Part shown: positions 8,310 to 52,499 of the stretch, one piece after another
How the letters are laid out: each line of letters starts with the position of its first letter
Numbering within the stretch: position 1 is the stretch's first letter
Assembly: GCA_016787225.1 (NCBI GenBank)
Contig: JAEUUY010000017.1
Location: 1-63,600 of the forward strand
Length of the DNA: 63,600 nucleotides
Direction: 5' to 3'
From: Chitinophagales bacterium
Lineage (GTDB): Bacteria > Bacteroidota > Bacteroidia > Chitinophagales > JADJOU01
Notes under the pieces: generated by a model
What the model was told of the DNA's origin: nothing
Seen by the model: the letters and a program-made list of their open reading frames with translations, nothing else
The model's database searches: none
Made by a program: the position numbers and the translations under genes

Positions 8310-9584
8310 ATGATGCGCAATATTAAAAAGCTAGGTTTATTCCTGATTTTCACCGTTTTGTCTTTGAGTATGTTGCAGGCTCAGGACGCGAAAGCAGGTA
8401 AGGCAACATTTAGAAGTAAGTGCGGTAGCTGCCACGATGTATCTCTTCAACAGAAAATGACTGGTCCTGCACTAGCAGGTGTTGTTGATCGATGGAATGC
8501 TGCAGGTGCTTTTAAAGGGAAGTCTGGAGAAGAGTGGTTAAAGACTTGGATATACAACTGGAACGATGCAGTATCTTCTGGTTATCCTTATGCAGTGAAA
8601 ATGAAAGATTATGACGCCAGTGCGATGAGTGTTTTTGCGGGTCAAATTTCTGAAGAGGAATATGCTAACATGTTGGCTTACATAAAGAATCCAGCTGCGG
8701 CAGCGCCCGCTGGAGGTGACAAAACTGCAGGAACTAAAGTTTCAGCAGGGGGAGATGATAGTAAAACATCTTATACATTAGCAGTACTTGGTGCTTTGGT
8801 ATTACTATTGCTTTTAGCTTATTTTCTAGGTAGAACTTCTAAGAATCTTGATTTAGTTTCTGTAGTGAAAAAAAGTGATGGTCAATACGATGTTAAGGTA
8901 GGTTCAGAAGATAAAACACCTTTTTACTTAAAGAGCTCTTTTAAATCGTTTTTATTACTTGCTACCGTCTTGTTATTTGTATTTGCTCTAGGTAAAAGTG
9001 CTATAGGACTGGGAAGACAGCAAGGCTATCAGCCTACACAGCCTATCAAGTTTTCACATGCACTGCACGCAGGTCAAAATAAAATTGAGTGTCAATATTG
9101 TCACTTCACGGCTGCTGAGAGTAAGCATGCTAATATACCTTCAGTGAGTACTTGTATGAATTGCCATGTTGCAATCCAAAGTGGACCAAAGTATGGTAAA
9201 GCTGAAATAAGTAAAATTTATGAAGCTGTGGGTTGGGATCCTTCTACGAATACCTACTCCAAAGAACCTAAAAAAGTAGAATGGGTTAGAATTCATAACC
9301 TCCCTGATCATGTTTATTTCAATCACGCTCAGCACGTCACAGCTGGTAAAGTAGAGTGTCAGACCTGTCATGGTCCAATAGAGACTATGGAAGAAGTATA
9401 TCAGTATTCTCCATTATCTATGGGATGGTGTATTAATTGTCATAGAAATCATGATGTTCAGTTTGTAGATAATGCTTATTACAATACATTCAAGAGTTTT
9501 CATGATGGTATGAAAGCAGGAGATAGAAAGCGTGTTACTGTAGAGGATATAGGCGGTACAGAGTGTCAAAAATGTCACTATTAA
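8310..9584 (+). CDS. actA: Alternative complex III multihaem cytochrome c ActA, with fused monohaem domain
   Basis: ActA is the periplasmic electron-transfer cytochrome of alternative complex III (quinol:cytochrome c or oxidase oxidoreductase). The 424 residues hold a signal peptide (1-25), a class I monohaem cytochrome c domain (CGSCH at 38-42, with Met-bearing KMTGPAL), a Gly/Ala linker, two membrane spans (about 150-175 and 210-230), and a five-CxxCH domain (CQYCH, CMNCH, CQTCH, CINCH, CQKCH). That gives six haem sites. The pentahaem part is the family hallmark; the N-terminal monohaem domain is an extra module. It opens the act operon. Starts at 8310 and 8313 are both ATG and equivalent. 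Confidence 0.9.
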   Translation: MMRNIKKLGLFLIFTVLSLSMLQAQDAKAGKATFRSKCGSCHDVSLQQKMTGPALAGVVDRWNAAGAFKGKSGEEWLKTWIYNWNDAVSSGYPYAVKMKDYDASAMSVFAGQISEEEYANMLAYIKNPAAAAPAGGDKTAGTKVSAGGDDSKTSYTLAVLGALVLLLLLAYFLGRTSKNLDLVSVVKKSDGQYDVKVGSEDKTPFYLKSSFKSFLLLATVLLFVFALGKSAIGLGRQQGYQPTQPIKFSHALHAGQNKIECQYCHFTAAESKHANIPSVSTCMNCHVAIQSGPKYGKAEISKIYEAVGWDPSTNTYSKEPKKVEWVRIHNLPDHVYFNHAQHVTAGKVECQTCHGPIETMEEVYQYSPLSMGWCINCHRNHDVQFVDNAYYNTFKSFHDGMKAGDRKRVTVEDIGGTECQKCHY

Positions 9585-9645
9585 TTTCCAACTAATCAAG
9601 AATAAAAAAATAATTGATAAATTCTAAATTCAAACTAAAGTAGAA

Positions 9646-12636
9646 ATGAATTCGAATATAAATAATGAATTTGGCGAAGAATTACCAGTATTACAGGGAA
9701 TTTTAGAGCCTATCACGGATAAGGAAACGAATAGAAGAGACTTCTTAAAAACTTTGGGTTTTACAGTAAGCGCGGCTAGTATAGCAGCTTCATGTTCTAT
9801 CCCTGAGAAAAGATCTATTCCTTATGTCAAAAGACCAGAGGAAATAGTACCAGGAATGGCTACTTATTATGCTTCAGTTTTTGCACAGGGAGGTCACTAC
9901 AATAGTATATTGGTAAAAAATAGAGATGGAAGACCTATCAAGATAGAAGGTAATCCTGATTCGGTATTGTCAGGTGGAGGCACTACAGCCTTAGCGCAGG
10001 CTTCTGTCATTTCATTATATGATTCAAATAGACACCAAAATCCAAAAAAAGGTGGTAAAGATTCTGACTGGAAAACTGTTGATTCAGAAATTGTTACTAA
10101 GTTAAATGAATTGAAAGCCTCTAATAGTAAAGTAGCTTTGGTTACTTCTTCTATCATGAGTCCTTCTACCAATGCTTTGATATTTGAATTTATATCTAAA
10201 TATCCAAATATTGTTCATGTAACGCACGATGCGGTATCTATGTCAGGATTATTGACAGCAACTGAACAGTCTTTTGGGGTGAGAACATTGCCTCAGTATC
10301 GCTTCGATAATGCAGATGTCATCTTATCTATAGGTGCGGATTTTGCTGCTACATGGTTAAATCCAGTTGGGTTTTCAAAGCAATATATTAAGCGTAGAAA
10401 GGTATCGAAAGAAAATACGAATATGAGTACTCATATTCAGGTAGAATCAGTACCTTGTCCTACAAGTGCTACAGCAGATCATAAATTTTTAGTATCTGCA
10501 TCTGATGAGGCTAGATTTGCTGCAGAATTATATAATACTTTGACAACAGGAGCTGCTTCAAAAGTAGAAGGTGTAGCGAAAGTAGCTGAAGCCTTGACCA
10601 AGGCTAAGAATGAGGGCAAATCAATTTTAGTAGTCAATGGTATCAATGATACGAATGTTCAAAAATTGACCTTTGCCTTAAATAGTTTCTTAGGAGGAAT
10701 AGGTAAAACAGTATTTGTAGGACCTAAGGTAAATTATAAAAAAGGTGTTCAGGCAGATACAGATGCTTTTGTAGCTGAATTAAAAAGTGGCGTTATCAAA
10801 GGAGCATTATTCTTAGATTCTAATCCAGTTTATTCAATGGCTGGAGGAAGCGATTTAGCAAAGAAAATTGAAGGACTTGCTTTAAGTGTATCTTTCTCAG
10901 ATAAAATAGATGAGACCTCTTCAGTTTGTCAATATATCTGTCCTAATAATCATTATCTTGAAAGTTGGAATGATTACGAACCTGAACAAGGAGTTTATGC
11001 TATAGCACAGCCAGTTATTTCTCCATTATTTAATACTCGCCAGTTTCAGCAGACCTTGATGAATTGGCTAGGCAATACTGGAAGCTATTATGATTTTATT
11101 CGAAACACGGCTTCGACATATAATTCAGGATCTGGCTATCATAATTTTGATGCATTTTGGTCTTATACCCTTCAAAAAGGTGAGTTTGCAAGCTCAAGTT
11201 TTGGTTCTGCTTCGTCTTCTTCTTTTAACGGTGGCGATTTAAGTGGAGCAATTGCACAAATCAATGCGAATTATGCCAAGAGTGATAAATTTGAAGTAAG
11301 ATTTTATGAAACGGTGCACGGAGACGGCTCTGCTGCAGACAATCCTTTCATTCAAGAACTACCTGATCCAGTTTCTCGTATGACTTGGAGCAATTATTTC
11401 TTAGGCAATCCAGATGATGTAAAAGCCTTAGGGGCTGATGCTATTTTGAATGAGAAAAAATATACGATTCTCAAAGCAAATATCAATGGCAAAGAGGTTT
11501 CTCTTCCTGTAGTACCTATGGCTGGTGTAGCTAAAGGTACATTAGGTATGAAATATGGTTGGGGAAGAACGAGCACTTCTAGTGCAGAATATCAATATGG
11601 ATATAATGCATTCAACGCACTTCCAAATTCAGGAAGCAATGTTGTAGCAAAAGTTGATGTTTCTAGCACTGGCAATAGTGAAGAAATGGCTTCCGTTCAG
11701 TCTTATTTTACTCTAAACCATATGGGATTGGGTGGAGAGAAGACACGAGATCTAATAAAAGAAACGACTCTTGCTGAATATAAGTCAAATCCTGAAGCAG
11801 GCAACTTGATAGGAGGTCAGAGTAGAAAAGAATGGATTGAGCATCATTTGGTGACCTTATATCCAAAACATGAATATCCAGGACATCAGTGGGGTATGGC
11901 TATTGACCTTAACTCTTGTGTGGGTTGTGGTGCATGTGTCATAGCTTGTAATGTAGAGAATAATGTGCCTGTTGTGGGTAGAAAAGAGGTTTTCCGTTCT
12001 CATGACATGCATTGGATGAGAATTGATAAATATCATACGGGCGATGTTAATAATCCAGATGTAACCTTCCAGCCTATGCTTTGCCAGCATTGTGACAATG
12101 CTCCATGTGAGAATGTTTGTCCTGTAAGTGCTACCAATCATAGTACAGATGGCATCAACCAAATGGCTTACAACAGATGTATTGGTACGAGATATTGCGC
12201 CAACAACTGTCCATATAAAGTGAGAAGATTTAATTGGTTTGACTATACTGGTTCTGATTCATTTGGTGCTATCAACGATAATGATCCTTTGAATAGAACC
12301 GATGCGATAGCTCGTATGGTGCTGAATCCTGACGTTACTACTCGCTCTAGAGGGGTAATTGAAAAATGTAGCTTCTGTATTCAAAGAATACAAGTAAGCA
12401 AATTAGACGCTAAGAAGGAGAATAGAGAAGTAAGAGATGGCGAGATAGTGACCGCATGTCAGTCAGCTTGTTCTACAGGTGCGATTGTGTTTGGAGATGT
12501 TAATAATCCTGAGTCATTGGTTTCTAAATTGACGAATGATGAAAGAACCTTCGGTGTCGTAGAGGAGATATATACTAAACCTTCCGTCAACTATATGACT
12601 AAGGTTAGAAATAGAGATAAATCGAATAAAGCATAA
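9646..12636 (+). CDS. actB: Alternative complex III iron-sulfur/molybdopterin-like subunit ActB
   Basis: ActB is the large periplasmic Fe-S subunit. The 996-residue protein has a twin-arginine motif (RRDFLK, about 28-33) with a lipobox-like AASC, so it is exported folded and probably lipid-anchored. A molybdopterin oxidoreductase-like domain follows (to about 740) that in this family binds no cofactor. The C-terminal ferredoxin domain carries Cys clusters CVGCGACVIAC, CQHCDNAPCENVC, CIGTRYCANNC and CSFCIQR, consistent with four clusters. It accepts electrons from quinol oxidation in ActC/ActF and passes them to ActA. It lies 61 bp after actA. Confidence 0.93.
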   Translation: MNSNINNEFGEELPVLQGILEPITDKETNRRDFLKTLGFTVSAASIAASCSIPEKRSIPYVKRPEEIVPGMATYYASVFAQGGHYNSILVKNRDGRPIKIEGNPDSVLSGGGTTALAQASVISLYDSNRHQNPKKGGKDSDWKTVDSEIVTKLNELKASNSKVALVTSSIMSPSTNALIFEFISKYPNIVHVTHDAVSMSGLLTATEQSFGVRTLPQYRFDNADVILSIGADFAATWLNPVGFSKQYIKRRKVSKENTNMSTHIQVESVPCPTSATADHKFLVSASDEARFAAELYNTLTTGAASKVEGVAKVAEALTKAKNEGKSILVVNGINDTNVQKLTFALNSFLGGIGKTVFVGPKVNYKKGVQADTDAFVAELKSGVIKGALFLDSNPVYSMAGGSDLAKKIEGLALSVSFSDKIDETSSVCQYICPNNHYLESWNDYEPEQGVYAIAQPVISPLFNTRQFQQTLMNWLGNTGSYYDFIRNTASTYNSGSGYHNFDAFWSYTLQKGEFASSSFGSASSSSFNGGDLSGAIAQINANYAKSDKFEVRFYETVHGDGSAADNPFIQELPDPVSRMTWSNYFLGNPDDVKALGADAILNEKKYTILKANINGKEVSLPVVPMAGVAKGTLGMKYGWGRTSTSSAEYQYGYNAFNALPNSGSNVVAKVDVSSTGNSEEMASVQSYFTLNHMGLGGEKTRDLIKETTLAEYKSNPEAGNLIGGQSRKEWIEHHLVTLYPKHEYPGHQWGMAIDLNSCVGCGACVIACNVENNVPVVGRKEVFRSHDMHWMRIDKYHTGDVNNPDVTFQPMLCQHCDNAPCENVCPVSATNHSTDGINQMAYNRCIGTRYCANNCPYKVRRFNWFDYTGSDSFGAINDNDPLNRTDAIARMVLNPDVTTRSRGVIEKCSFCIQRIQVSKLDAKKENREVRDGEIVTACQSACSTGAIVFGDVNNPESLVSKLTNDERTFGVVEEIYTKPSVNYMTKVRNRDKSNKA

Positions 12637-12705
12637 TTAAATCACAATTAAAATTTAAAAGGTATTTGGTGCCATTATCGCTAACTGCTGAATAAACTAA
12701 AATAT

Positions 12706-14100
12706 ATGTCACAAGTAGATTCATTATTGAGAGAACCATTGATAAATGGTGTAGACAAGACCTACGGAAAAATTACAGAAGACATCGTGCGCAATACAGA
12801 AGGAAATCCTCCAAAAGATTGGTGGATAGCCTTTGGCTTTGCCGTTGCTGGCTTATTGCTTTATGTTACAGCAGTGAGTTGGACTATATTCAAAGGTATA
12901 GGTGTATGGGGTCTTCAAAAAACTGTAAACTGGGCTTGGGATATCACCAACTTCGTATGGTGGGTCGGTATCGGTCACGCAGGGACCTTGATTTCGGCGG
13001 TACTTCTTCTATTCAAACAAAAATGGAGAACAGGTATTAACCGCGCGGCTGAGGCTATGACCATCTTTGCGGTTATTTGTGCAGGTCAGTTTCCATTAAT
13101 TCACATGGGTCGTATTTGGCAAGGATTTTTCATATTCCCTTATGCAAACACCAGAGGTCCACTTTGGGTAAATTTTAATTCTCCACTTCTTTGGGACGTA
13201 TTTGCGATATCTACTTATTTCACGGTTTCTTGTCTTTTCTGGTATTCTGGGCTAATGCCAGATTTTGCTACTATTCGTGATAAGGCTAAGAGTGAGAAAA
13301 GAAAGAAAATATACAATATCTTGAGTTTTGGTTGGAGAGGTACTGCTATACAATGGTCACGCTTTGAGAGTCTTTCTCTTGTGTTGGCAGGACTTTCGAC
13401 ACCGCTTGTACTTTCAGTGCACTCTGTAGTATCCTTTGACTTCGCTACATCTGTTATTCCAGGGTGGCATACTACCATTTTCCCTCCTTACTTCGTTGCA
13501 GGGGCTATCTTCTCTGGATTTGCTATGGTACAGACTTTGATGTTGATTACCAGAAAAGTACAAAAATTGGAAGATTACATTACGATAGCTCATATTGAAT
13601 CTATGAATAAAGTAATCGTTCTTACGGGTTCTATTGTTGGTATAGCCTATATCACAGAGCTTTTCATAGCATGGTATTCAGGTTATTTGTATGAGCAATA
13701 TGCTTTCTATAACAGAGCATTTGGAGATTATTGGTGGGCTTATTGGTCTATGATGACTTGCAACGTATTATCACCACAGTTATTCTGGTTTAAGAAGTTT
13801 CGTCGAAGCATTTTTGTAAGTTTTATCATGTCTATCTTTGTGAATGTAGGTATGTGGTTTGAGCGCTTCGTGATTATCGTAACTTCTTTGCATAAAGATT
13901 TCTTAGTGTCAAGCTGGAATTATTTCACTCCTACATGGGTAGATATTTCAATTTTTATCGGTAGCTTGGGATTATTCTTCACTTGCTTCCTGTTATTCTC
14001 ACGTACGTTTCCTGTAATAGCTATAGCAGAGGTAAAAGCTATTTTCTCTTCGATATCTGAAGCAGCGCAGGCTAAGGCGAGAAAAGAAGGTTCACATTAA
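12706..14100 (+). CDS. actC: Alternative complex III membrane subunit ActC (NrfD family)
   Basis: ActC is a polytopic quinol-oxidising subunit of the NrfD/PsrC family. The 464 residues contain about ten membrane spans, with family segments WWVGIGHAGTLISAVL, CAGQFPLIHMGR and SVHSVVSFDFATSVIPGWH. Conserved His and acidic residues in the spans belong to the quinol site and proposed proton path. It sits 69 bp after actB and 29 bp before actD, in standard act order. Confidence 0.94.
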   Translation: MSQVDSLLREPLINGVDKTYGKITEDIVRNTEGNPPKDWWIAFGFAVAGLLLYVTAVSWTIFKGIGVWGLQKTVNWAWDITNFVWWVGIGHAGTLISAVLLLFKQKWRTGINRAAEAMTIFAVICAGQFPLIHMGRIWQGFFIFPYANTRGPLWVNFNSPLLWDVFAISTYFTVSCLFWYSGLMPDFATIRDKAKSEKRKKIYNILSFGWRGTAIQWSRFESLSLVLAGLSTPLVLSVHSVVSFDFATSVIPGWHTTIFPPYFVAGAIFSGFAMVQTLMLITRKVQKLEDYITIAHIESMNKVIVLTGSIVGIAYITELFIAWYSGYLYEQYAFYNRAFGDYWWAYWSMMTCNVLSPQLFWFKKFRRSIFVSFIMSIFVNVGMWFERFVIIVTSLHKDFLVSSWNYFTPTWVDISIFIGSLGLFFTCFLLFSRTFPVIAIAEVKAIFSSISEAAQAKARKEGSH

Positions 14101-14129
14101 TTTAGTATAAATACAAATAGAATAATAAT

Positions 14130-14672
14130 ATGGGTCACGGAAAAATAGAGCACAAAGAATATGTTTATGGAATTTATTCCCATGAAACAAATTTTTTAGA
14201 TGCTATCAAGAGTGTTCAAGCGGATGGATTAACTGTAGATGATGCTTATTCTCCATTCCCTGTGCATGGTATCGATGATTTATTAGGTGTTAAAGAAACC
14301 AGTTTGCACAAAGCTGGCTTTACGCTAGGATTGACAGGAACGGTAACTGCCCTAAGTGTAATGACCTATGTCAACACAATGGGTTATCCTACTATTTTTG
14401 GAGGTAAGCCATTTTGGTCACTGCCAGCTTTTATTCCGGTTATATTTGAAACTACAGTCCTTATGGCCGCAGTAGGCATGTTTTTCGTATATATCAAACG
14501 TAATGAGCTTTTTCCAGGAAAAATTCCAATGATCATAGATGAAAGAACAACGGATGATAAATTTGCCTTAGCATTTGGAATAGATGGAAAGTCTGATAGT
14601 GAAATAGCAAACATAAAGTCTGCATTGCAGAAGAGTGGGGCGGAAGAGATTAACACAAAATCATTTGAATAA
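14130..14672 (+). CDS. actD: Alternative complex III subunit ActD (DUF3341)
   Basis: ActD is a DUF3341 protein of 180 residues. It has a soluble N-terminal half (VYGIYSHETNFLDAIK, VDDAYSPFPVHGID), two membrane spans (about 65-88 and 97-121), and a cytoplasmic tail ending in DERTTDDKFALAFGID. The motif YSPFPVHG and the two-helix hairpin are typical of the family. It contributes two membrane helices to the complex and has no cofactor. Gene order actC-actD-actE fixes the assignment. Confidence 0.93.
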   Translation: MGHGKIEHKEYVYGIYSHETNFLDAIKSVQADGLTVDDAYSPFPVHGIDDLLGVKETSLHKAGFTLGLTGTVTALSVMTYVNTMGYPTIFGGKPFWSLPAFIPVIFETTVLMAAVGMFFVYIKRNELFPGKIPMIIDERTTDDKFALAFGIDGKSDSEIANIKSALQKSGAEEINTKSFE

Positions 14673-14691
14673 TTAATAATACAAAGTAAAG

Positions 14692-15363
14692 ATGGATAGC
14701 CAAACTAAAAAGTTTTATCTAAAAATAGGTGTTGCACTTCTTTTCGTAGCTTTTCTACTATATAAGAGTCCTAAATCACCAGGGAGTATTTATGCGCCTG
14801 ATATGGCTTTCTCCAAAGCATATGAAACATATTCAGATGATAATCCTCGAGGTACAATGTTGCCAGTAGCGAATACTGTTTCAAGAAACGCACTTCCTAG
14901 TGATGAACTTTATCAAAAGGAGAAGTCGGTCATTTATTCTTACAACTATACACGTTTTTATCAGAATACAGATGCTGATAAAGCGAGAGCAGGTGCGGAA
15001 TTGAATAATCCATACGAACCTACGGAAGCTGTTTTAGCTAGAGCAAAGGTTGTATATGATAAGCAATGTGCTATCTGTCATGGTGAAAAAGGTCTAGGTG
15101 ATGGTAAGTTAATTGTAAGAGAAGATGGTAGCGACGGTGCATACAAATCAGTACCTCCTAAATATTCTGATAGACTAGTAGGTATGAAGGATGGCGAAAT
15201 TTTTCATTCTATCACATATGGTAAGAATCTAATGGGTGCTCACGCTGCTCATGTAAAGGCTGATGATAGATGGAAGCTTGTATGTTATATAAAAGAATTA
15301 GGAGGGTTAAATAAAGCGTCTGATCCTGCGGCTGCAGCACCAGCTGATTCTACTAAAAAATAA
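14692..15363 (+). CDS. actE: Alternative complex III monohaem cytochrome c ActE
   Basis: ActE is the anchored monohaem cytochrome c of the complex. The 223 residues have an N-terminal membrane anchor (about 8-24), the segment DDNPRGTMLPVANTVSR typical of the family, one haem site CAICH followed by GEKGLGDG (about 123), and a Met ligand probably in KNLMGAHA. The tail is Ala/Pro-rich. It is believed to sit beside ActA on the periplasmic side. The gene is 19 bp after actD. Confidence 0.92.
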   Translation: MDSQTKKFYLKIGVALLFVAFLLYKSPKSPGSIYAPDMAFSKAYETYSDDNPRGTMLPVANTVSRNALPSDELYQKEKSVIYSYNYTRFYQNTDADKARAGAELNNPYEPTEAVLARAKVVYDKQCAICHGEKGLGDGKLIVREDGSDGAYKSVPPKYSDRLVGMKDGEIFHSITYGKNLMGAHAAHVKADDRWKLVCYIKELGGLNKASDPAAAAPADSTKK

Positions 15364-15396
15364 TTTGAGTAAAGATAAAAGATAAATAGAAAAAAA

Positions 15397-16842
15397 ATGG
15401 GACACGAAAAAGTACATTTCGATTTGAATAAAGAACATTATAAGTTCGAAGGTAGCATTAAAACTATGACTATAGTCTTTATGGTTCTTGGTGTATTGGG
15501 TGCTATTTGGGCTTTTTTTGATAATGGTGGATGGAATCACCATGCTAGATTTTGGTCTAATTTTCTCTTGAATTCTTATTACTTTAACGCTATGGCCTTG
15601 ACTGCAATTTTCTTTATAGCAGCTCATACCATTGGCTATGGTGGCTGGATTGCATCTGTTAAAAGAATATTTGAAAGTTTTAGTAGTTACATTTTGGTTG
15701 GGTTGATTTGTTTCCTTATCATTATAGCAGGAATTTGGCTTGACTGGCATAGTTTATACCACCATTGGACACACCCAGCTCCTGGTGATACTATTGTAGG
15801 TGATAAAATAGCTTTTCTAAATAAGGGAACGTTTACTGGACTTACCTTATTGTTTTTTGCAGGTTGGATTATCTTTTCTCAGTGGTTTAAGAAGCATTCC
15901 TTGGCTTCAGATCATTATACTGATGAGGTAGCTTACAATCAAAAGTCTAAGTATATAGCTGCTGGCTATATTGTTTTCTTTGGTGTAGGTACTTCTGTAT
16001 TCAGCTGGTTAGCGGTGATGTCGCTAGATCCTCATTGGTATTCTACCTTATTTGGATGGTATAATTTTGCTAGTTATATGTGTGGGTTTCTATGCATGAC
16101 TATCTTAATTATCTTAATACTAAAAGCTAAAGGTAATCTAGCTTTTGTTAATGAAAGCCATATGCACAATATTGTATTGTTCCTTTTCGGCTTTAGTGTA
16201 TTTTGGACTTATCTATGGTTTTCACAGTTTATGCTTCAGTGGTATGGTAATATACCAGAGGATACCATGTGGTTTGTCAAGAGATTTGACGTTCCTATGT
16301 TCAAGGCATTTTTCTGGATTGCTTTTATAATAAACTTTATTTTCCCCTTCCTTTTCTTAATGAAAAGAAGAGCAAAAAGAAATCCATGGATTTATGGTAT
16401 AGCTGCAGTTATATTGTTGTTTGGACATTATTTAGATTTCTATTCTATGGTTATGTTCGAACCAAATAGAGAATCAGAGCACCATGCTTCAGCTCCTGAA
16501 ACTCATGCAGCAAAATTTGAAAATTCTGTAAAATTGTTGGCAGATAATCATACGAAGGATACAGCTCATGCCGCAGAGCATGCGGTTGTAGCTTCTAACG
16601 AAAATCATGCTACCAATACACATACTGATGTAGCTGCTAGCTCACATACTATGGATCAAGATCATTCACATGACGCACATGCTAAGCCTGCTCATCATGC
16701 AACTTTAGGTTTGATAGAAATAATGATGTTTCTAGGATTTATTGGTTTATTCTTATATGTTATTCTTTCTACATTGAGTAAGAATCGATTAGTGCCATTG
16801 AAATCCCCTTATTTAGAAGAGAGTTTAAACTACCATACTTAA
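15397..16842 (+). CDS. actF: Alternative complex III membrane subunit ActF with His-rich insertion
   Basis: ActF is the second polytopic subunit, related to ActC. The 481 residues carry about ten spans with HHWTHPAPGD, SWLAVMSLDPHWYSTLFGWYN and QWYGNIPEDTMWF, all typical of the family. Unusually, about 82 residues (355-436) before the last span form a hydrophilic insertion with 14 His (for example DQDHSHDAHAKPAHH), a possible metal-binding loop. The last span and a short tail follow. It ends the act genes; coxB starts 35 bp later, so complex III and oxidase are co-transcribed. Confidence 0.92.
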   Translation: MGHEKVHFDLNKEHYKFEGSIKTMTIVFMVLGVLGAIWAFFDNGGWNHHARFWSNFLLNSYYFNAMALTAIFFIAAHTIGYGGWIASVKRIFESFSSYILVGLICFLIIIAGIWLDWHSLYHHWTHPAPGDTIVGDKIAFLNKGTFTGLTLLFFAGWIIFSQWFKKHSLASDHYTDEVAYNQKSKYIAAGYIVFFGVGTSVFSWLAVMSLDPHWYSTLFGWYNFASYMCGFLCMTILIILILKAKGNLAFVNESHMHNIVLFLFGFSVFWTYLWFSQFMLQWYGNIPEDTMWFVKRFDVPMFKAFFWIAFIINFIFPFLFLMKRRAKRNPWIYGIAAVILLFGHYLDFYSMVMFEPNRESEHHASAPETHAAKFENSVKLLADNHTKDTAHAAEHAVVASNENHATNTHTDVAASSHTMDQDHSHDAHAKPAHHATLGLIEIMMFLGFIGLFLYVILSTLSKNRLVPLKSPYLEESLNYHT

Positions 16843-16877: not shown

Positions 16878-18356
16878 ATGTTAAACATTTTATTGACCTT
16901 AGGAGTTATAGTCTTGTTTTATTCGATAGCTGTTATGCTGGCGAATATTGTAGAACGCATTAGAACTCTAAGAGGAGAAGAATTAGATTACTCAAGAAAT
17001 AGTCAAAGACATGGAAAATTATTCATGATTTATGGGATATTTTTCTTGATTATGTGTGCATTTAGTTTGAAGTACATGGAGTTTGCAAGTCTTCCAAAGG
17101 CTGCTTCAAATTGGGGTGTAGAGGTTGATACTTTATTCGTAGTCACTTGTTGGATTACAGGTATTGTTTTTGTAATCACACACATTGCACTTTTTTATTT
17201 CGTATGGAAATATAGAGGTGAAAAAGATAAGAAGGCTACTTTTTTTGCGCATAGCGGTAAGCTAGAGTTGATATGGACTTCGATTCCAGCTTTGGCTATG
17301 GCGGTGCTTGTAATCATGGGACTTAAAACATGGTTTAATGTATTTCCTAATAAAAAAACACTACCTGCCAATCAATTAACTATTGAAGCTACTGCGAAGC
17401 AGTTTAATTGGCTGCTTCGTTATCCAGGAGCAGATGGCGTATTTGGAAAAAGAGTAATTTCAAAAGATTTTGTAAGTCCCGATAATGAACTAGGCATCGA
17501 TTGGACAGATCCTGCAAGCCATGATGATTTTTTCGCATCGGAACTATACATGGTAAAAGACAGACCTGTTCATTTTAATTTGGGAGCATTAGATGTGTTG
17601 CATAGTTTTTATTTACCTCATTTTAGAATGAAAATGGATTGTGTACCTGGTGTACCTACTGGCATAGGTTTCACACCTACTATGACTAATGATGAGACTC
17701 GCGAATTATTAAAATCAAATAAACATTGGGCTAGTATAGATCCTGAGACCAATGAGCCTAGATACATGAAATTCAATTATGAATTAGCTTGTGCTGAGTT
17801 GTGTGGAAAATCTCACTATGGTATGATGATGCCTGCGCACGTAGTCTCTCAAGCTAAGTTTGACGAATGGGCTAAAGCGCAAAAACCTTTTTATGAGGTA
17901 AACAAAGATAAGATTCAAGCTTGGTTAGCAAAAATGAATATGACTGCAGCTCCTGCTAAGGTAGATAATCATACTGCATTTAGTTTTGAGGAAGTGATGA
18001 AAAAGGGTATCGATAAAGATGCAGTGTATGAGACAGATGCCATTGAGTTCGCTAGTGGTAGTGCAGAATTAAATGCTAAGTCGAAGGGAACACTTGACCA
18101 ATTAGCTCAATTATTGGAAAAGAATCCTTCAAATTCGATAGTGTTATCTGCTCATACGGATAGCGATGGAGATGATGCTAAAAATTTGGAATTAAGTCAG
18201 AAGAGAGCAGATGCTTGTTTAGCTTATTTAGTAAGCAAAGGCATAAAAGCTGAAAGAGTTGGCGCTAAGGGTTACGGTGAGACCCAGCCGATAGCAGACA
18301 ATGCTACCAAAGAAGGCAAACAAAAAAATAGAAGAACAGAATTTGATTTTAACTAA
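16878..18356 (+). CDS. coxB: Cytochrome c oxidase subunit II fused to an OmpA-like domain
   Basis: Subunit II passes electrons from cytochrome c to the oxidase through the CuA centre. The 492 residues comprise four N-terminal hydrophobic spans (1-20, about 48-70, 86-112, 130-155), then the periplasmic cupredoxin domain with CuA ligands: His in DVLHSFYLPHFRMKMD and the motif CAELCGKSHYGMM. About residues 382-492 are an OmpA/MotB-type peptidoglycan-binding domain: IEFASGSAELN, LSAHTD, LELSQKRA, GYGETQP and the terminal KQKNRRTEF. A normal subunit II ends soon after the CuA fold. The fusion is in one clean frame with coxA 42 bp downstream. The enzymatic call is certain; wall anchoring is inferred. 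Confidence 0.94.
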   Translation: MLNILLTLGVIVLFYSIAVMLANIVERIRTLRGEELDYSRNSQRHGKLFMIYGIFFLIMCAFSLKYMEFASLPKAASNWGVEVDTLFVVTCWITGIVFVITHIALFYFVWKYRGEKDKKATFFAHSGKLELIWTSIPALAMAVLVIMGLKTWFNVFPNKKTLPANQLTIEATAKQFNWLLRYPGADGVFGKRVISKDFVSPDNELGIDWTDPASHDDFFASELYMVKDRPVHFNLGALDVLHSFYLPHFRMKMDCVPGVPTGIGFTPTMTNDETRELLKSNKHWASIDPETNEPRYMKFNYELACAELCGKSHYGMMMPAHVVSQAKFDEWAKAQKPFYEVNKDKIQAWLAKMNMTAAPAKVDNHTAFSFEEVMKKGIDKDAVYETDAIEFASGSAELNAKSKGTLDQLAQLLEKNPSNSIVLSAHTDSDGDDAKNLELSQKRADACLAYLVSKGIKAERVGAKGYGETQPIADNATKEGKQKNRRTEFDFN

Positions 18357-18398: not shown

Positions 18399-20171
18399 AT
18401 GGCACATACAGCACACGAACATCATGAGGATTCATTCTTGGAGAAATATATTTTCAGCCAGGATCATAAAATGATTGCTAGACAGTTTCTATTTACAGGT
18501 ATTTTTTGGTCAATAGTCGGAGCTGCGATGTCTGTTCTTTTCAGATTGCAGTTAGGCTGGCCTAATGAGACATTTCCATTTTTAGAAACATTGCTCGGAA
18601 AGTGGGCAGAAGGTGGAAGAATTTCGAATGAGTTCTATTATTCATTAGTCACTATGCATGGAACCATATTGGTATTCTTTGTATTAACGGCTGGTCTTTC
18701 AGGAACTTTTGCTAATCTTCTTATCCCTTACCAAGTAGGAACTAGAGATATGGCTTCACCATTTATGAATATGCTTTCTTATTGGTTTTTCCTATTGGCA
18801 GGTGTATTAATGCTAGCTTCACTATTTGTGCAAACAGGTGCAGCCTCTGGTGGTTGGACCATGTATCCACCGCTGAGTGGATTGCGTGATGCTAAGGTAA
18901 ACGCAGGTTCTATGTGGGGTACAGACTTATGGTTTTTAAGTATGGCTATGTTTATCGTATCCTCACTTTTAGGAGGTTTGAATTATATAGCAACCATCTT
19001 AAATTTAAGAACCAAAGGTATGACTATGTGGCGCTTACCTTTGACGGTGTGGGCTTTATTGTTTACAGCTATTTTAGGTGTTTTAGCATTCCCACCATTA
19101 TTAAGTGCGGCTCTTTTACTAGAGTTCGATAGATTATTCGACACCTCTTTCTATTTGTCTGATATCGTCGTTGGAGGAAATTTGCTTGACTATAAAGGTG
19201 GTTCGCCTATTTTGTTCCAACATTTATTTTGGTTCTTAGGACACCCTGAAGTATATATTATTATATTACCTGCTATGGGTATTACTTCAGAGGTACTTTC
19301 TGTTAATGCTCGTAAACCAGTCTTTGGTTATAGAGCCATGGTTTACGCCATCGGTGTTATCGTATTACTTGGCTTCTTAGTGTGGGCGCACCACATGTAT
19401 ATGTCTGGTATGAATCCATTTTTAGGATCGATATTTACCTTATTTACCTTGTTAATTGCAGTTCCTTCGGCAGTAAAAGTATTTAACTGGCTGACGACGA
19501 TATGGAAAGGTAATCTAAGACTAACTCCAGCAATGATGTTTGCTCTTGGTTTCGTATCCTTATTTATATCTGGAGGATTGACTGGAATCTTCTTAGGTAA
19601 TTCTGCGATTGATATACCTTTACATGATACCTACTTTGTGGTTGCGCATTTCCATATCGTTATGGGTGTAGCGGCATTCTTTGCAATGTTTTCTGGCGTA
19701 TATCATTGGTTTCCTAAAATGTTTGGTAGATATATTAATGATACATTGGGCTATGTACATTTTTATGTGACCATTATCTCTGCTTATGCTATATTCATAC
19801 CTATGCACTTTATGTTAAGCCTTCCTCGTAGATATTACGTTTATTCAAATTTTCAGACATTTAATATCTTCGAAGATGTATCTAAGTTCATATCTGTTTT
19901 TGCTATTATTTCATTTTTAGCTCAAATTTTATTTGTAGTAAACATTGTTTATAGCGCATTAAAAGGAAGAAAATTCACTAATGAGAATTTGAATCCATGG
20001 GGTTCTAACACCTTAGAGTGGACAACACCGGCTGAGCATATTCATGGAAACTGGCCAGGTGAAATTCCAGAAGTTCATAGATGGCCGTATGACTATTCTA
20101 CAGGATTTGGAGATACTGATTTCAGACCTCAAACAGAGCCTTTGAAAGAAGGTGAAGAATCACACGGTTAG
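18399..20171 (+). CDS. coxA: Cytochrome c oxidase subunit I (A1-type aa3)
   Basis: This is the catalytic subunit, which reduces oxygen at the haem a3-CuB centre and pumps protons. The 590 residues show twelve or more spans and the key motifs: HGT near residue 87 (haem a His), WFLGHPEVYI (CuB His, D-channel Glu and the cross-linked Tyr, marking an A1-type oxidase), WAHHMYMSGM (two CuB His), and HDTYFVVAHFHIVMG (haem a and a3 His). The N-terminus is His-rich (MAHTAHEHHED). It lies between coxB and ctaB in the operon. Confidence 0.97.
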   Translation: MAHTAHEHHEDSFLEKYIFSQDHKMIARQFLFTGIFWSIVGAAMSVLFRLQLGWPNETFPFLETLLGKWAEGGRISNEFYYSLVTMHGTILVFFVLTAGLSGTFANLLIPYQVGTRDMASPFMNMLSYWFFLLAGVLMLASLFVQTGAASGGWTMYPPLSGLRDAKVNAGSMWGTDLWFLSMAMFIVSSLLGGLNYIATILNLRTKGMTMWRLPLTVWALLFTAILGVLAFPPLLSAALLLEFDRLFDTSFYLSDIVVGGNLLDYKGGSPILFQHLFWFLGHPEVYIIILPAMGITSEVLSVNARKPVFGYRAMVYAIGVIVLLGFLVWAHHMYMSGMNPFLGSIFTLFTLLIAVPSAVKVFNWLTTIWKGNLRLTPAMMFALGFVSLFISGGLTGIFLGNSAIDIPLHDTYFVVAHFHIVMGVAAFFAMFSGVYHWFPKMFGRYINDTLGYVHFYVTIISAYAIFIPMHFMLSLPRRYYVYSNFQTFNIFEDVSKFISVFAIISFLAQILFVVNIVYSALKGRKFTNENLNPWGSNTLEWTTPAEHIHGNWPGEIPEVHRWPYDYSTGFGDTDFRPQTEPLKEGEESHG

Positions 20172-20205
20172 TAGTACTTGTTTAATTAACTATAATAGAA
20201 GATAA

Positions 20206-21090
20206 ATGAATAAGATTAAAGTTATTGCATTGCATAAGGTTCAAGCTAGACTTGGAAACTATGCTGCATTATCTAAGTTCCGTTTATCATCATTTGTCAT
20301 TTTATCTTCGGTTATTGGGTTCATAGTAGGTTCTCCATCTGGAGAATTTGATTGGGTTAAATTGACACTTTTCACCCTTGGTGGTAGCCTAGTTACTTTT
20401 GCTTCTAATGCGATCAATCAGCTGATAGAAAAAGATTCTGATCGTCTGATGATTCGCACTCAGAATAGGCCTTTACCTACAAGGTCTATGAGCCAAATGG
20501 ATGCCGTTTTGTTCATTGGTATTACAGCCCTGGCTGGTATATTGACTTTGACGTTTGCTGTCAATACTATGACAGGGTTACTATCAGCATTATCTCTTTT
20601 GATTTATGGCTTTATATACACACCGCTTAAAAAAGTTTCTTCGATAGCGGTTTTTGTCGGAGCTATACCTGGGGCATTGCCACCATTGTTAGGATATGTA
20701 GCGGCTACCAATAACTTAAATCATTATGCTGTTTGGTTATTCGTCGTTCAATTTTTCTGGCAGTTCCCTCATTTTTGGGCGATAGCATGGCTAAGTTATG
20801 AGGATTATCTCAAGGCAAATATCATGTTGCTACCCAGCCGTGATGGCAAGTCGAAGCAGTCTGCATTTATTACGTTTATCTATACCATAGTGCTAGTTCC
20901 GCTATCGCTGTATCCAGTTTATTTAACGAATCAGTGGAATGCTGGAGCTATAGTATTACTTCTAGCTAGCCTTGGATTTAGCTATTTAGCCTTCAAGTTT
21001 TATAAGTCTTGTAAAGATAATGATGCTAGAGCGCTTATGTTTGGTTCGTTTGCTTATTTATTGATATTCTTAATTTCATTATTTTTCTAA
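20206..21090 (+). CDS. ctaB: Protohaem IX farnesyltransferase (haem O synthase)
   Basis: CtaB adds a farnesyl group to haem B to make haem O, the precursor of haem A for the oxidase. The 294 residues form about nine spans of the UbiA family. The two substrate motifs are NAINQLIEKDSDRLMIRT with NRPLPTRSM (first Asp-rich site) and YEDYLKANIMLLPSRDG (second). Haem A synthase (ctaA) is not in this window and must lie elsewhere. The gene is 34 bp after coxA and 5 bp before the first subunit III gene. Confidence 0.95.
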   Translation: MNKIKVIALHKVQARLGNYAALSKFRLSSFVILSSVIGFIVGSPSGEFDWVKLTLFTLGGSLVTFASNAINQLIEKDSDRLMIRTQNRPLPTRSMSQMDAVLFIGITALAGILTLTFAVNTMTGLLSALSLLIYGFIYTPLKKVSSIAVFVGAIPGALPPLLGYVAATNNLNHYAVWLFVVQFFWQFPHFWAIAWLSYEDYLKANIMLLPSRDGKSKQSAFITFIYTIVLVPLSLYPVYLTNQWNAGAIVLLLASLGFSYLAFKFYKSCKDNDARALMFGSFAYLLIFLISLFF

Positions 21091-21095
21091 GTAAA

Positions 21096-21677
21096 ATGAG
21101 TGATGCAATGAATATGAAGTCGCCAATGAGTGGAAGAATTCATCCGAAATTATTCCTACTCTATCTTTCTTTTGGTAGTATGATTATGCTGTTTTCAGCA
21201 TTTTGCAGTGCGCTTATTGTCCGCAAAGGAGATATTCGTCAGGCATGGATTGAATTGCCTTTACCATCAGCTTTTTTATATAGTACCTTGATTATTATTG
21301 TTTCGAGTGTTACTATCCATTTGGCATATAAATATATCGCTCAAAAATCCCAGTTCATGCTTTGGAGTCTGATTACTTTAGCCTTGGCTTTAGTTTTTGT
21401 TAGCCTACAGTGGCAGGGGTGGAATGAAATGCAGACTAGACAAATTTTTCTTAATGGGAATCCTTCTGGATCTTTTATCTATGTTATTTCTGGTTTACAT
21501 GGATTACACTATGTAGGAGGTATTGTTGCCTTGATATTGATGATTTTAAATTTCAGAAAAAAGACAATTGGTGAAGGTCAAAAAATGGGCTTCAATATTT
21601 TAATGCAGTATTGGCATTTTATTGGTATCGTGTGGGTATTATTATATTTATTTTTTAAATTTATTATATATAAATAA
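21096..21677 (+). CDS. Cytochrome c oxidase subunit III-like protein (first copy)
   Basis: This 193-residue protein has five predicted spans and ends with the subunit III signature: FIYVISGLHGLHYVGGIVAL and YWHFIGIVWVLLYLFF, whose His residues are typical of CoxC. The N-terminus is short, so it is a five-helix subunit III. Bacteroidota act-cox operons often carry two such genes in tandem. The start at 21096 is 5 bp after ctaB; internal ATGs at 21108 or 21114 are possible. It stabilises subunit I and may guide oxygen access. Confidence 0.88.
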   Translation: MSDAMNMKSPMSGRIHPKLFLLYLSFGSMIMLFSAFCSALIVRKGDIRQAWIELPLPSAFLYSTLIIIVSSVTIHLAYKYIAQKSQFMLWSLITLALALVFVSLQWQGWNEMQTRQIFLNGNPSGSFIYVISGLHGLHYVGGIVALILMILNFRKKTIGEGQKMGFNILMQYWHFIGIVWVLLYLFFKFIIYK

Positions 21678-21683
21678 TTATTT

Positions 21684-22379
21684 ATGGCAATAGAAACAGT
21701 AGAAAATTTAAAAGAATCACACTGGCAAGGTGGTGCGCCACCAATGAAGGCGAGTTATGGAAAAACCATGATGTGGTATTTTCTTATTTCGGATACATTT
21801 ACCTTTGTAGCATTTCTAGTTTCCTACGCTACGGTGCGTATGGTCAATGCAGAAGCTTGGCCAAAGGCTTCTAAAGTATTTAGTTCTATTCCTTTACCAG
21901 GATTTGAAAAGTTTCATGATTTACCATTGGTTTTTGTAAGTTTGATGACCTTCATACTTATCATCAGTTCTGTGACGATGGTTCGTGCCGTGCAGGAAGG
22001 TGCCAGAATGAATAGAGCAGGAGTTGTGCGAAATTTGCTACCTACAATTGGTTTTGGTATTCTATTTTTACTTTGTCAGTATTTTGAGTGGACACACCTC
22101 ATGCACGATGGAATGACTTTAACTTCTATGCCTGCGAAGTTTGCTGGAGCTAATGGCACTGTAGCCTATCAGTTTGGTTCTTATTTCTTCTTAATTACAG
22201 GTTTTCACGGTGCGCACGTGTTTGGTGGAGTGATACTAAATTTGTATCTACTTATAAGAACATTGAGAGGAGATTTCGATAGACTGGGTCATTATGAAAT
22301 GGTAGAGAAGATAGGTTTGTACTGGCACTTTGTAGATTTAGTATGGGTTTATGTATTCCTAGCTTTCTATTTAATGTAA
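21684..22379 (+). CDS. coxC: Cytochrome c oxidase subunit III (second copy)
   Basis: This is the second of the tandem subunit III genes, 231 residues with about five to six spans. Conserved points are MMWYFLISDTFTFVAFLVSY near the N-terminus, a span holding CQYFEWTHL, FLITGFHGAHVFGGVI, and YWHFVDLVWVYVFLAFYL at the C-terminus. It begins 6 bp after the first copy, so the two are probably translationally coupled. One copy may occupy the usual subunit III position and the other a peripheral one; that is not decidable from sequence. Confidence 0.92.
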   Translation: MAIETVENLKESHWQGGAPPMKASYGKTMMWYFLISDTFTFVAFLVSYATVRMVNAEAWPKASKVFSSIPLPGFEKFHDLPLVFVSLMTFILIISSVTMVRAVQEGARMNRAGVVRNLLPTIGFGILFLLCQYFEWTHLMHDGMTLTSMPAKFAGANGTVAYQFGSYFFLITGFHGAHVFGGVILNLYLLIRTLRGDFDRLGHYEMVEKIGLYWHFVDLVWVYVFLAFYLM

Positions 22380-22416
22380 GAAAATATTATTAACTGAAAA
22401 TTTGAAATTTTAAAAT

Positions 22417-22866
22417 ATGGGACATCATCATTCTGACACGTATCCTAAGCATGACAATCATTTGGCATTAACAGATGGGGATTATAAGCACCACAAAGCT
22501 GATATTTGGAAAACTACTGGTATATTGTCTTTCGTTACAGTATTCGAGGTAGGATTTGCTATATGGTATGAAAAGTCTTTGATTCCGGGCGGAGCACCAC
22601 TATGGGCACTTCAATTGACCCTTGTAGTACTATCATTATTAAAGGCTGGCTATATTATGGCTGTATTTATGCACGTAAAGCATGAAACTAGAGCTTTTAT
22701 TCTCACTATTCTAGTTCCTTTTAGCTTACTGATATGGATGATAATTTCTTTCATTTATGATGGTAATGACTGGAATGGCAGAAATAATAATCGTTTTGGA
22801 GATAAGCCTCACCCAAGTGTACTGAAACAACATGGCGGTGTCGTTATTGAACATGGACATCATTAA
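22417..22866 (+). CDS. Cytochrome c oxidase subunit IV-like protein
   Basis: This 149-residue protein of the COX4_pro type has three spans (about 33-52, 60-85, 90-113) and the family segment ALQLTLVVLSLLKAGYIMAVFMHVKHE. Both ends are His-rich (MGHHHSDTYPKHDNH and VIEHGHH). The subunit has no cofactor and supports assembly of the oxidase. It is the last gene of the operon before a strong terminator. Confidence 0.9.
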   Translation: MGHHHSDTYPKHDNHLALTDGDYKHHKADIWKTTGILSFVTVFEVGFAIWYEKSLIPGGAPLWALQLTLVVLSLLKAGYIMAVFMHVKHETRAFILTILVPFSLLIWMIISFIYDGNDWNGRNNNRFGDKPHPSVLKQHGGVVIEHGHH

Positions 22867-22873
22867 TTAATAC

Positions 22874-22905
22874 AAAAGACGACTCTTAGGGTCGTCTTTT
22901 TTTTT
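22874..22905 (+). terminator. Terminator of the act-cox operon
   Basis: AAAAGACGAC (22874-22883) pairs perfectly with GTCGTCTTTT (22891-22900), loop of seven bases, followed by nine T in total. It separates the structural genes from the SCO and DUF420 assembly genes. Confidence 0.9.
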
Positions 22906-22971
22906 GATATTTTATTTTTTCATTGTATCAAACTGTTTTAAAATTGCATATCATTTATAGAATGACATAAG

Positions 22972-23649
22972 ATGAATAAGAAAAATTGGCTTTGGATTAT
23001 AGTGTTTATAGCTGTTACAGCGGTGCCTGCTGCTATCATATATTATACGAAACAAAAAAATAATTTTAGGAATTCAGCTGCACCTAGACCTATCTGGCCA
23101 CAAGGATTGGCGGAGAACGGTAAAGATACGCTATACTTCAAACTACCGATTTATACCGCCCTTAACGCCGATAGCACACTTGTAAGTACTCAAGAACTTG
23201 ATGGAAAAATAACGGTTATAGAGACTTTTTTCTCTGAATGCCAGTCTATCTGCCCTATTATGAATAAAAATCTGACACGCGTATTTGAAAGTCTGGGTCG
23301 GAATAAGCAATTTCAGATTTTCTCGTATAGCGTGGACTATGAGCGTGATGATTTGGCGAAATTGCGCACTTATGCGGCTAATCATGGTGCAGATTTGGTT
23401 CAGTGGAAATTTCTTCGCTCACCGCAGGACTCCATTTTTAATTTCGGGAGATGGGGTTTAAAATTACCTGTAGGTGAAGATGAGATAGAGGGAAATTTTC
23501 TCCATAGTGAGCGTTTTGTATTGGTGGATTGGAATAGAAATATTAGAGGCTACTACGATGGTACTGACTCTGCAAGTGTCAATAAAATGATGAATCATAT
23601 CGTACTCTTGATGAGTGAAAAAGATAGATTGGAGAGGAAGAAGAAATGA
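22972..23649 (+). CDS. SCO1/SenC family copper chaperone
   Basis: SCO proteins deliver copper to, or reduce, the CuA site of oxidase subunit II. The 225 residues have an N-terminal membrane anchor (about 4-22) and a thioredoxin-like periplasmic domain. The metal site is CQSIC (CxxxC, about 86-90, in FFSECQSICPIMNKNL), with the conserved distal His in FLHSERFVLVD. It lies right after the oxidase operon terminator and before DUF420, so copper loading of the neighbouring coxB product is its likely task. Confidence 0.93.
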   Translation: MNKKNWLWIIVFIAVTAVPAAIIYYTKQKNNFRNSAAPRPIWPQGLAENGKDTLYFKLPIYTALNADSTLVSTQELDGKITVIETFFSECQSICPIMNKNLTRVFESLGRNKQFQIFSYSVDYERDDLAKLRTYAANHGADLVQWKFLRSPQDSIFNFGRWGLKLPVGEDEIEGNFLHSERFVLVDWNRNIRGYYDGTDSASVNKMMNHIVLLMSEKDRLERKKK

Positions 23650-23713
23650 TTTTAAAATATGTTCTGATAGTTATCCGGATTGAAAAGGTAAAAATTAATT
23701 TTATTTTATAATT

Positions 23714-24253
23714 ATGAATCAACGTGCTAAACAATTAATAGGCTTATTGACAGCTGTCGTAATGGGATTGGTATTCCTAATGTATAGCGGATTTGGTGTC
23801 AAGGAATGGTTTGATGCTAGCTTTCCAGACTTTGATAAATCAAGACTTCCATTTCTAAATGCTTTGTTCAATTCATTAGTTTTTATCTGTCTTTTGAGTG
23901 CATTTCGAGCGATTAAAAACAAGAATATTCAGGTTCATAGAAGGTTTATTTATATAGCTTGTGTATTATCGACTTTGTTTCTTTTGAACTATGTTTTCTA
24001 TCATATGATCTCCGAATCTACAAAGTATGGTGGAGAAGGAATACTGAAAGGAATTTATCTCTTTATTCTAGTTACACATGTTATCTTGGCAGCTCTGAGC
24101 TTTCCATTTATAGTTTATACAGCCTTTTTAGGACAAACTATGCAGGTCGAAAGCCATAGGAAGTTAGCTAAGTTTGTGTTTCCTGTTTGGTTATATGTTG
24201 CCTTTACAGGTGTGGTGGTTTATTTCATGATATCGCCGTATTATCAGCACTAG
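23714..24253 (+). CDS. DUF420 membrane protein (CtaM-like oxidase assembly factor)
   Basis: This 179-residue protein has about five spans. HRRFIYIACVLSTLFLLNYVFYH and the ESHRKLAKFVFPVWLYVAFTGVVVYFM end are typical of DUF420. A DUF420 member in Firmicutes (CtaM) is needed for aa3 oxidase maturation, and position next to SCO supports the same role here, by inference. Its TAG stop (24251-24253) overlaps the minus-strand TAG of lptD (24250-24252): the palindrome CTAG ends both genes. Confidence 0.88.
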   Translation: MNQRAKQLIGLLTAVVMGLVFLMYSGFGVKEWFDASFPDFDKSRLPFLNALFNSLVFICLLSAFRAIKNKNIQVHRRFIYIACVLSTLFLLNYVFYHMISESTKYGGEGILKGIYLFILVTHVILAALSFPFIVYTAFLGQTMQVESHRKLAKFVFPVWLYVAFTGVVVYFMISPYYQH

Positions 24254-49829: not shown

Positions 49830-52499
49830 TTACTTCTCCGTCACTCGCATCGAAATTCTTCTATTCTTTTGTTTGCACTCTTCGGTGTCATTGGCTGGGC
49901 AAACCGGGTGATTCTGACCATAACCCTCCGCCTTCATTCTATCTGATGCTATGCCTAATTTTACTAGTTCATCCATGACATTCGTGGCTCTTTCACCGGA
50001 TAGTTTTAAGTTAGCATCTGCATTGCCGGTATTATCGGTATATCCACCTATTTTCACTTTTACATTAGGAAATGCTTTTAAGATATTGGCTATATTACCG
50101 AGCTGCTCCTGAGAAGCTGGAGTCAAGATATTTTTTCCAGTTTCAAAAGTCAATCTATCAAAATCAAACCATGTAGTGTCATTCACCATCGAGTTATTAT
50201 CACTTATAAATTTGAATAAACCTGCTTCAATACCATTGTCTGGAACTTGCATTGTTGCTGTGCTACCAGGAAGTGTAATCGCTGCCTGTCCGTCTTGAAT
50301 CATGATTTTTTGCTCTACGATTTCCATTTTGGTCACTTCCTTGTGACAACAATGATTCTGCTCAGCTAAGAAAGGCGCAATGGTCAAACCAACTAATGAT
50401 GTCAGCTTAATTAAAATATTCATAGAAGGACCCGAAGTATCTTTGAAAGGATCTCCTACCGTGTCACCAGTCACTGCAGCTTTATGCGGTTCAGATTTTT
50501 TGAAATATTTCTGTCCATCGATTTCTACACCTTTTTCAAATGATTTCTTGGCATTGTCCCAAGCACCACCCGCATTATTCTGGAAGATAGCCCATAGCAC
50601 ACCAGAAACCGTTACACCTGCCATATAGGCACCTAGAGGCTCTGCACCCATAAATAATCCAACTAATACAGGCGTCACTATCGTTATCAAGCCTGGAAGC
50701 ATCATTTCTCTCAAAGCAGCCTGAGTAGAGATAGCTACACACTTGCCATATTCTGGCTTGCCAGTGCCTTCCATAATACCTGGTATTTCTTTGAATTGTC
50801 TTCTCACTTCTTTTACCATGTCCATAGCTGCCTTACCTACACTACTCATAGCGAGTGCAGAGAAGACGACTGGTACCATAGCACCTATAAATAGTGCAGC
50901 TAGTACATTGGCTTTGAAAATATTGATACCATCGATACCAGTAAATGTCACATAAGCTGCAAATAAAGCTAAAGCGGTCAATGCTGCTGAAGCAATAGCA
51001 AATCCTTTACCAATAGCCGCTGTCGTATTTCCTACTGAATCCAAGATATCCGTTCTACCTCTTACTTCTTCTGGTAGTCCAGACATTTCTGCGATACCTC
51101 CTGCGTTATCTGCTATAGGTCCGAATGCATCAATAGCTAGCTGCATAGCCGTAGTAGCCATCATAGCACCTGCAGCTATCGCTACTCCGTAAAATCCTGC
51201 AAAATGATAAGCACCCATAATAGCTCCAGCGAATAACAAGATAGGCATCCATGTACTCATCATACCGAGGGAAAGACCAGCTATGATATTGGTAGCTGCA
51301 CCCGTTCCAGATTGTCTAATAACACCTAAAACAGGTTTTGTACCTACGCCTGTATAGTATTCTGTAATGGAAGAAATAACACCTCCTACAACCATTCCTA
51401 TAATAGTAGCTATAAATACATCCATTCTGCTAACCATTTTAGCCTTTTCACCGAAAAATTCCATATTCATTTCAGCAGGCAATATCCAGTTAATCAAGAA
51501 AAATACAGAAATCAAAGTCAAAATCAATGAAGACCAGTTTCCTATATTCAAGGCTCTTTGTACATCGCCATTATCATCTTTTACCGATACAAACCAAGTA
51601 CCGACGATGGACCATATAATACCTACTGCAGCTATAGCTACTGGTAAGATAATAGGTCCGATACCACCAAATCCTTGGAAGATACCTTCATTGGCAGGAT
51701 TGCCTAATAAATAATTTCCTAGAACCATAGCTGCTAGAACCGTTGCTACATAAGACCCGAATAAATCTGCACCCATACCCGCTACGTCACCTACGTTATC
51801 ACCTACATTATCCGCGATTGTTGCTGGGTTGCGTGGATCGTCCTCTGGGATACCTGCTTCTACCTTACCTACGAGGTCAGCACCTACATCAGCAGCTTTC
51901 GTATAAATACCACCGCCTACTCTTGCGAAAAGTGCAATAGACTCAGCACCTAATGAAAATCCTGCTAGCACTTCCAAAACCTGTGTCATGGCTGTGGAAC
52001 CACCATTAGCGAAGTCTCCACCCATGAAGTATTTGAATAATAAGATAAATAAGAAGCTCAAACCAAAAACCGCTAGACCAGCTACACCCAGTCCCATCAC
52101 CGTACCACCACCGAAGGATACTTTCAAGGCTTTAGCTAAACTCGTACGAGCTGCTTGCGTCGTTCTGACATTGGCTTTAGTAGCAATTCTCATACCGATA
52201 TTTCCGGCTACTGCTGAGAAAATAGCTCCTATGACAAAAGCAACTACGATAAGCCAGTGTGAAGTAGCTACCATTTGAGATAGCACGCCTAATAAGATAC
52301 CTGCTACAGCTACGAAAATAGCTAGAATACGATATTCAGCGTTTAAGAAAGCCATAGCTCCTTCTGCTATATAGTTAGCGATTTCTGTCATTTTGCTGTC
52401 ACCAGCGTCTTGCTTTTTTACCCATGAGGATAGGAAAAACATGTAAACCAGACCTACGATACCAAAAAATGGTAAGATGTAAATTAAATTGTTGTCCAT
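49830..52499 (-). CDS. hppA: Membrane pyrophosphatase fused to a C-terminal OmpA-like domain
   Basis: This ion-pumping pyrophosphatase (889 residues) uses PPi hydrolysis to move Na+ or H+ outward. The ATG at 52499 ([10 protein letters not shown]) is chosen because similarity starts there; a 25-residue upstream extension has none. About 16 spans, with catalytic motifs [20 protein letters not shown] and [15 protein letters not shown] (about 204-245) and [14 protein letters not shown]. Ala in [10 protein letters not shown] suggests the K+-dependent class. The last 140 residues carry an OmpA domain: [36 protein letters not shown] and KQKNRRISM. The last span exits to the periplasm, so the domain would face peptidoglycan. 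Confidence 0.94.

Follow-up and report, generated by a model that had tools for sequence, protein, structure and literature searches.

Does a respiratory oxidase whose subunit II ends in an OmpA domain hold on to the cell wall? The question is raised by a coxB gene in the 63,600-nucleotide stretch of Chitinophagales DNA analyzed here (the window; genome G000), the features of which are listed in Table 1. The gene is read in a single frame from ATG to TAA, with 492 codons, no internal stops and no frame changes. Pfam placed COX2_TM at residues 72-149, COX2 at 168-259 and OmpA at 391-485, the last with an E-value of 2.7e-24 and 85.8 bits against a cut-off of 27.2. With respect to its body, the product is a CuA-type subunit II with both the COX2_TM and COX2 domains and the full set of CuA ligands (C305-AEL-C309-GKS-H313-YG-M316 and H242). 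The tail is a full-length PF00691 domain, above the curated cut-off and of the same fold, which carries the OmpA signature HTDSDGDDAKNLELSQKRA and NRRTEF. A first-pass annotation had reported an OmpA domain after a complete CuA domain, and this was borne out by Pfam, by alignment and by an AlphaFold2 model.

Table 1. Coordinates of the fused coxB gene, its parts and the other features of the window.
Feature	Position	Strand	Remarks
coxB-OmpA fusion gene, cytochrome aa3 oxidase subunit II with C-terminal OmpA domain	16878-18356	+	492 aa
COX2 transmembrane region, residues 72-149	17091-17324	+	Pfam COX2_TM and hydropathy
CuA domain, to end of C305-C309-H313-M316 ligand motif	17379-17825	+	
Linker, residues 345-385	17910-18032	+	sequence weakly conserved, length conserved
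OmpA (PF00691) domain, residues 386-492	18033-18353	+	Pfam, alignment, model
D428, predicted peptidoglycan-binding Asp	18159-18161	+	
R443, predicted peptidoglycan-binding Arg	18204-18206	+	
Alternative complex III (ACIII) genes, whole block	8310-16842	+	
actA, multihaem cytochrome	8310-9584	+	
actB, iron-sulfur/molybdopterin-like protein	9646-12636	+	
actC/NrfD	12706-14100	+	
actD	14130-14672	+	
actE, monohaem c	14692-15363	+	
actF, membrane protein	15397-16842	+	named by position; no Pfam or NCBIfam match
coxA, ctaB-like UbiA, two COX3-type genes, COX4_pro, SCO1, DUF420	18399-24253	+	
Membrane pyrophosphatase (H_PPase) with C-terminal OmpA domain	49830-52499	-	OmpA about 49881-50150

Hydropathy analysis of the fused CoxB found four hydrophobic stretches within residues 1-157 and none beyond residue 170. 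With all four ahead of the CuA domain and no further one behind it, the tail shares the periplasmic location of CuA, as had been supposed from the start. By hydropathy and domain order the layout is of the MotB type, with OmpA on a linker at the periplasmic side of an inner-membrane complex. Solved wall-binding OmpA domains aligned with the CoxB tail across its whole length, and D428 and R443 coincided with the Asp and Arg that are conserved in the domains of C. gingivalis OmpA (5wtp) and P. aeruginosa OprF (5u1h), in keeping with the initial impression that the wall-binding pair is present. In the AlphaFold2 model (27 sequences, mean pLDDT 79.6) the predicted body matched oxidase subunit II chains by Foldseek, and the predicted tail superposed on C. 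gingivalis OmpA 5wtp_C at 1.3 A over 106 columns. The linker was modelled with a pLDDT below 50, and the placement of the CuA and OmpA domains relative to each other is uncertain in the model. The MurE of the window genome carries DNPR, the motif of MurE enzymes that add meso-diaminopimelate (meso-DAP).

The fused coxB sits between the ACIII genes and the coxA block, and the ACIII and aa3 genes thus stand together in the window. The same gene order was observed in G001 (L041) and G002 (L042), and in L141 apart from an unmatched SCO1. In F. johnsoniae, a member of the same phylum with the same kinds of ACIII and aa3, isolation of ACIII yielded a supercomplex with cytochrome aa3 (PMC8552683). 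A supercomplex of this kind may also form in the window's organism.

Within the window's genus the fusion was found in G000, G001 and G004, the second being an independent MAG whose protein (L041) shares 87% identity. Absence from all relatives had been raised as a possible refutation; instead the fusion proved widespread, being pervasive in the sister family f18 and present in more than 80 genomes beyond the window's (f1, f8, f18, f19 and f20 denote families of the window's order). The f18 survey took 120 genomes at least 95% complete, 116 of them with CoxB, and by hand count from the rows the profile match continued into the OmpA part in 85 of the 116 and not in 31. These 85 include one closed chromosome, two degenerate cases and two on truncated or split contigs, and the fusion is kept across more than 50 genera of the family. 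Single fusions were found in f8 (G055, G183), f19 (G118) and f20 (G024). No CoxB-OmpA outside the window's order was seen, at the thresholds used, in samples of the phylum (247) and class (396), each of which took in some genomes of that order. The cultured type strain Haliscomenobacter hydrossis DSM 1100 very probably carries the fusion, as L141; G258, which we take to be Saprospira grandis Lewin, has an unfused CoxB. One f18 genome (G1010) has two different fused coxB copies, L169 and L177. In an f18 lineage without OmpA (L125-L128, L130) CoxB has other, probably helical tails, which extend about 150-185 residues past the CuA motif and have a high content of Ala, Glu and Lys.

Both the Asp and the Arg were kept in 66 of 68 CoxB proteins with a recognizable OmpA tail, as counted by motif search, with all tails of more than 120 residues that failed the motif read by eye. 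Comparison of G000 with G001 (NG86) gave a dN of 0.10 with dS saturated for the OmpA part, 0.07 with a dS of 2.8 for the CuA part, and 0.17 with a dS of 1.6 for the linker. The low dN against saturated dS indicates that the OmpA part is under purifying selection. Linker identity between G000 and G004 was only 22%. Even so, the distance that separates the first Cys of CuA and the Asp of OmpA was 123 residues in all three f1 proteins (the window's genus) and a median of 124 in 59 f18 proteins (s.d. 2.8, range 110-133), against 136-148 in f8, f19 and f20; the near-fixed distance may be due in part to inheritance.

The tail has also been lost. CoxB of the congeners G002 and G003 (L013, L014) is about 85 residues shorter, and nucleotide alignment demonstrated that most of the OmpA part is deleted, with the sequence coding for IADNxxxEGKQ retained and followed by a stop, past which the DNA still aligns with the former KNRRTEFDFN end. 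Since G004, a more distant relative, still has the fusion, this relic points to secondary loss. The tail of genus g113 (L142, L184) is at OmpA length with the HTD and NRR motifs gone, and appears to be a degenerate or repurposed domain. Given these losses, the degeneration in g113 and the unfused members of f18, the tail is dispensable in some lineages.

In a tree of the CoxB core the f18 fusions grouped together, with scattered losses, and the f8, f19 and f20 fusions each adjoined unfused CoxB of their own genus or family. In the OmpA tree the f8, f19 and f20 tails shared a clade (100/100) with DUF937-OmpA and pyrophosphatase-OmpA proteins, and the f18 (85/85) and f1 (100/100) groups stood apart from it. 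One origin for all CoxB-OmpA was rejected on a careful 58-row tree with a p-AU of 2.1e-5, a value that is indicative only, since the groups were named partly after the sequences were seen. An earlier quick tree of 112 rows had given a p of 0.41 for a single origin, after a poor search in which one constrained tree had a score 66 units better than that of the free tree. Rejection of the all-together constraint implies at least two fusion events. The f1 and f18 fusions may be of common origin (support 56/77), and one event for the four f8, f19 and f20 fusions gave a p of 0.072. DUF937-OmpA proteins, the OmpA part of which lies near the f8, f19 and f20 CoxB tails and the pyrophosphatase tails, are a possible donor family. 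L192, L218, L219, L221, L222 and L236 are of this type, with DUF937 confirmed by Pfam for L192.

A second pump in the window has an OmpA tail. The membrane pyrophosphatase matched H_PPase with an E-value of 2e-260 and OmpA with 1.1e-18, and the Asp and Arg are kept in this tail also. The C-terminus of solved membrane pyrophosphatases faces the lumen or periplasm. Such fusions were found in 3 of 149 genomes of the order (G000, G055, G060); as G055 appears in the lists of both fusions, it has both fused pumps, like the window genome.

The first-pass annotation had recorded no established example of an arrangement of this kind, which was too strong a statement, since OmpA tails occur on Gloeobacter PsaB and on some bacterial membrane pyrophosphatases. 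PsaB of Gloeobacter violaceus (PDB 7f4v chain aB) is, like CoxB, an integral membrane subunit of an energy-converting complex with a C-terminal OmpA domain (residues 759-861 of 872 in the deposited sequence, E 2.4e-15), although it belongs to a cyanobacterial photosystem I. The paper on that photosystem ends its PsaB model at residue 727 and makes no mention of peptidoglycan or OmpA in the text (PMC9000952). Membrane pyrophosphatases with a C-terminal OmpA-related domain are described in Paucibacter and others, with a role still to be elucidated (PMC11210485). These too are inner-membrane ion pumps with an OmpA tail, but of another kind and from another phylum, and the window adds a Bacteroidota example of the pyrophosphatase. 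The caa3 oxidases (2yev) likewise have a subunit II lengthened at the C-terminus by a periplasmic domain; theirs is an electron-carrying cytochrome c, whereas that of CoxB-OmpA is of the wall-binding type and without redox motifs. MotB/MotS stators and other inner-membrane OmpA proteins share the wall-binding type of OmpA on a linker. Wall anchoring is essential in MotB/MotS, which are force-generating stators, in contrast to a redox pump whose domain some relatives do without. A search of open-licence papers found none that describes an oxidase-OmpA fusion; the sequence databases surely contain such proteins already. In view of the PsaB and pyrophosphatase analogues, CoxB-OmpA joins ordinary families in a combination that has precedents.

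We consider it probable (roughly 0.72) that CoxB ends in a functional peptidoglycan-binding OmpA domain which tethers the oxidase non-covalently to the wall. The inner-membrane end of the tether would be held by the CuA domain together with the four membrane helices, and the flexible linker of about 40 residues would give OmpA access to the wall from the periplasmic side of the inner membrane. Meso-diaminopimelate in a peptide stem would be gripped there by D428 and R443, so tethering the oxidase in the manner of MotB. An ACIII-aa3 supercomplex, if formed, may be anchored along with it, as the first-pass annotation had envisaged as a possibility. Lateral mobility of the oxidase would be restricted; the benefit would be a fixed respiratory array, many inner-membrane-to-wall links, or both. 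In favor of wall anchoring are the fold and the retained Asp and Arg of the tail, its location in the periplasm, the purifying selection on it, its near-fixed distance from CuA and its repeated acquisition, along with the meso-DAP-type MurE, the fused pyrophosphatase in the same genome and the operon context shared with L141 and G001. Against these stands the dispensability of the domain in some relatives, so that the anchoring originally proposed is retained as a qualified reading.

An artefact of assembly or frame that fused two genes is of negligible probability, as independent assemblies, including the closed chromosome, carry the fusion; chance, chimera and frameshift were ruled out by its recurrence in L041 and in the other genomes. 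That the domain is folded and selected but serves mainly to dock to another envelope protein, or to aid assembly or dimerization of ACIII-aa3, we regard as unlikely. Some OmpA-family domains do also work through proteins (YfiB and TssL were among the structural-sequence matches), linker and domain orientation are poorly determined in the model, and the two fused g113 proteins drop the OmpA motifs yet keep the length. However, the Asp and Arg that clasp meso-DAP are almost always retained, and different OmpA subtypes were recruited onto CoxB, which favors a property common to the family, namely wall binding. Scattered absences in f18 and the relic in G002 and G003 would suit a nearly neutral passenger, fused by chance, passively inherited and lost at leisure, but this is hard to reconcile with the low dN, the conserved site residues and spacing, the multiple origins and the retention across so many f18 genera, and we give it little credence.

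The usual picture of respiratory complexes is that they diffuse within the inner membrane, and the known cases in which that membrane is anchored to the wall are mainly those of flagellar stators and envelope machines. Tentatively, and at somewhat less than even odds, wall-tethered ion pumps may be a recurrent design, in which OmpA has been put repeatedly on the periplasmic ends of the aa3 oxidase, the membrane pyrophosphatase and, elsewhere, photosystem I, and abundant complexes, held rather than diffusing, double as inner-membrane-to-wall links. As a selected and repeatedly acquired oxidase tail in a large family with cultured members, the fusion makes anchoring directly testable. The tail-less congeners and the degenerate genus provide natural controls, and anchoring could be probed for its effect on supercomplex mobility, distribution and envelope strength.
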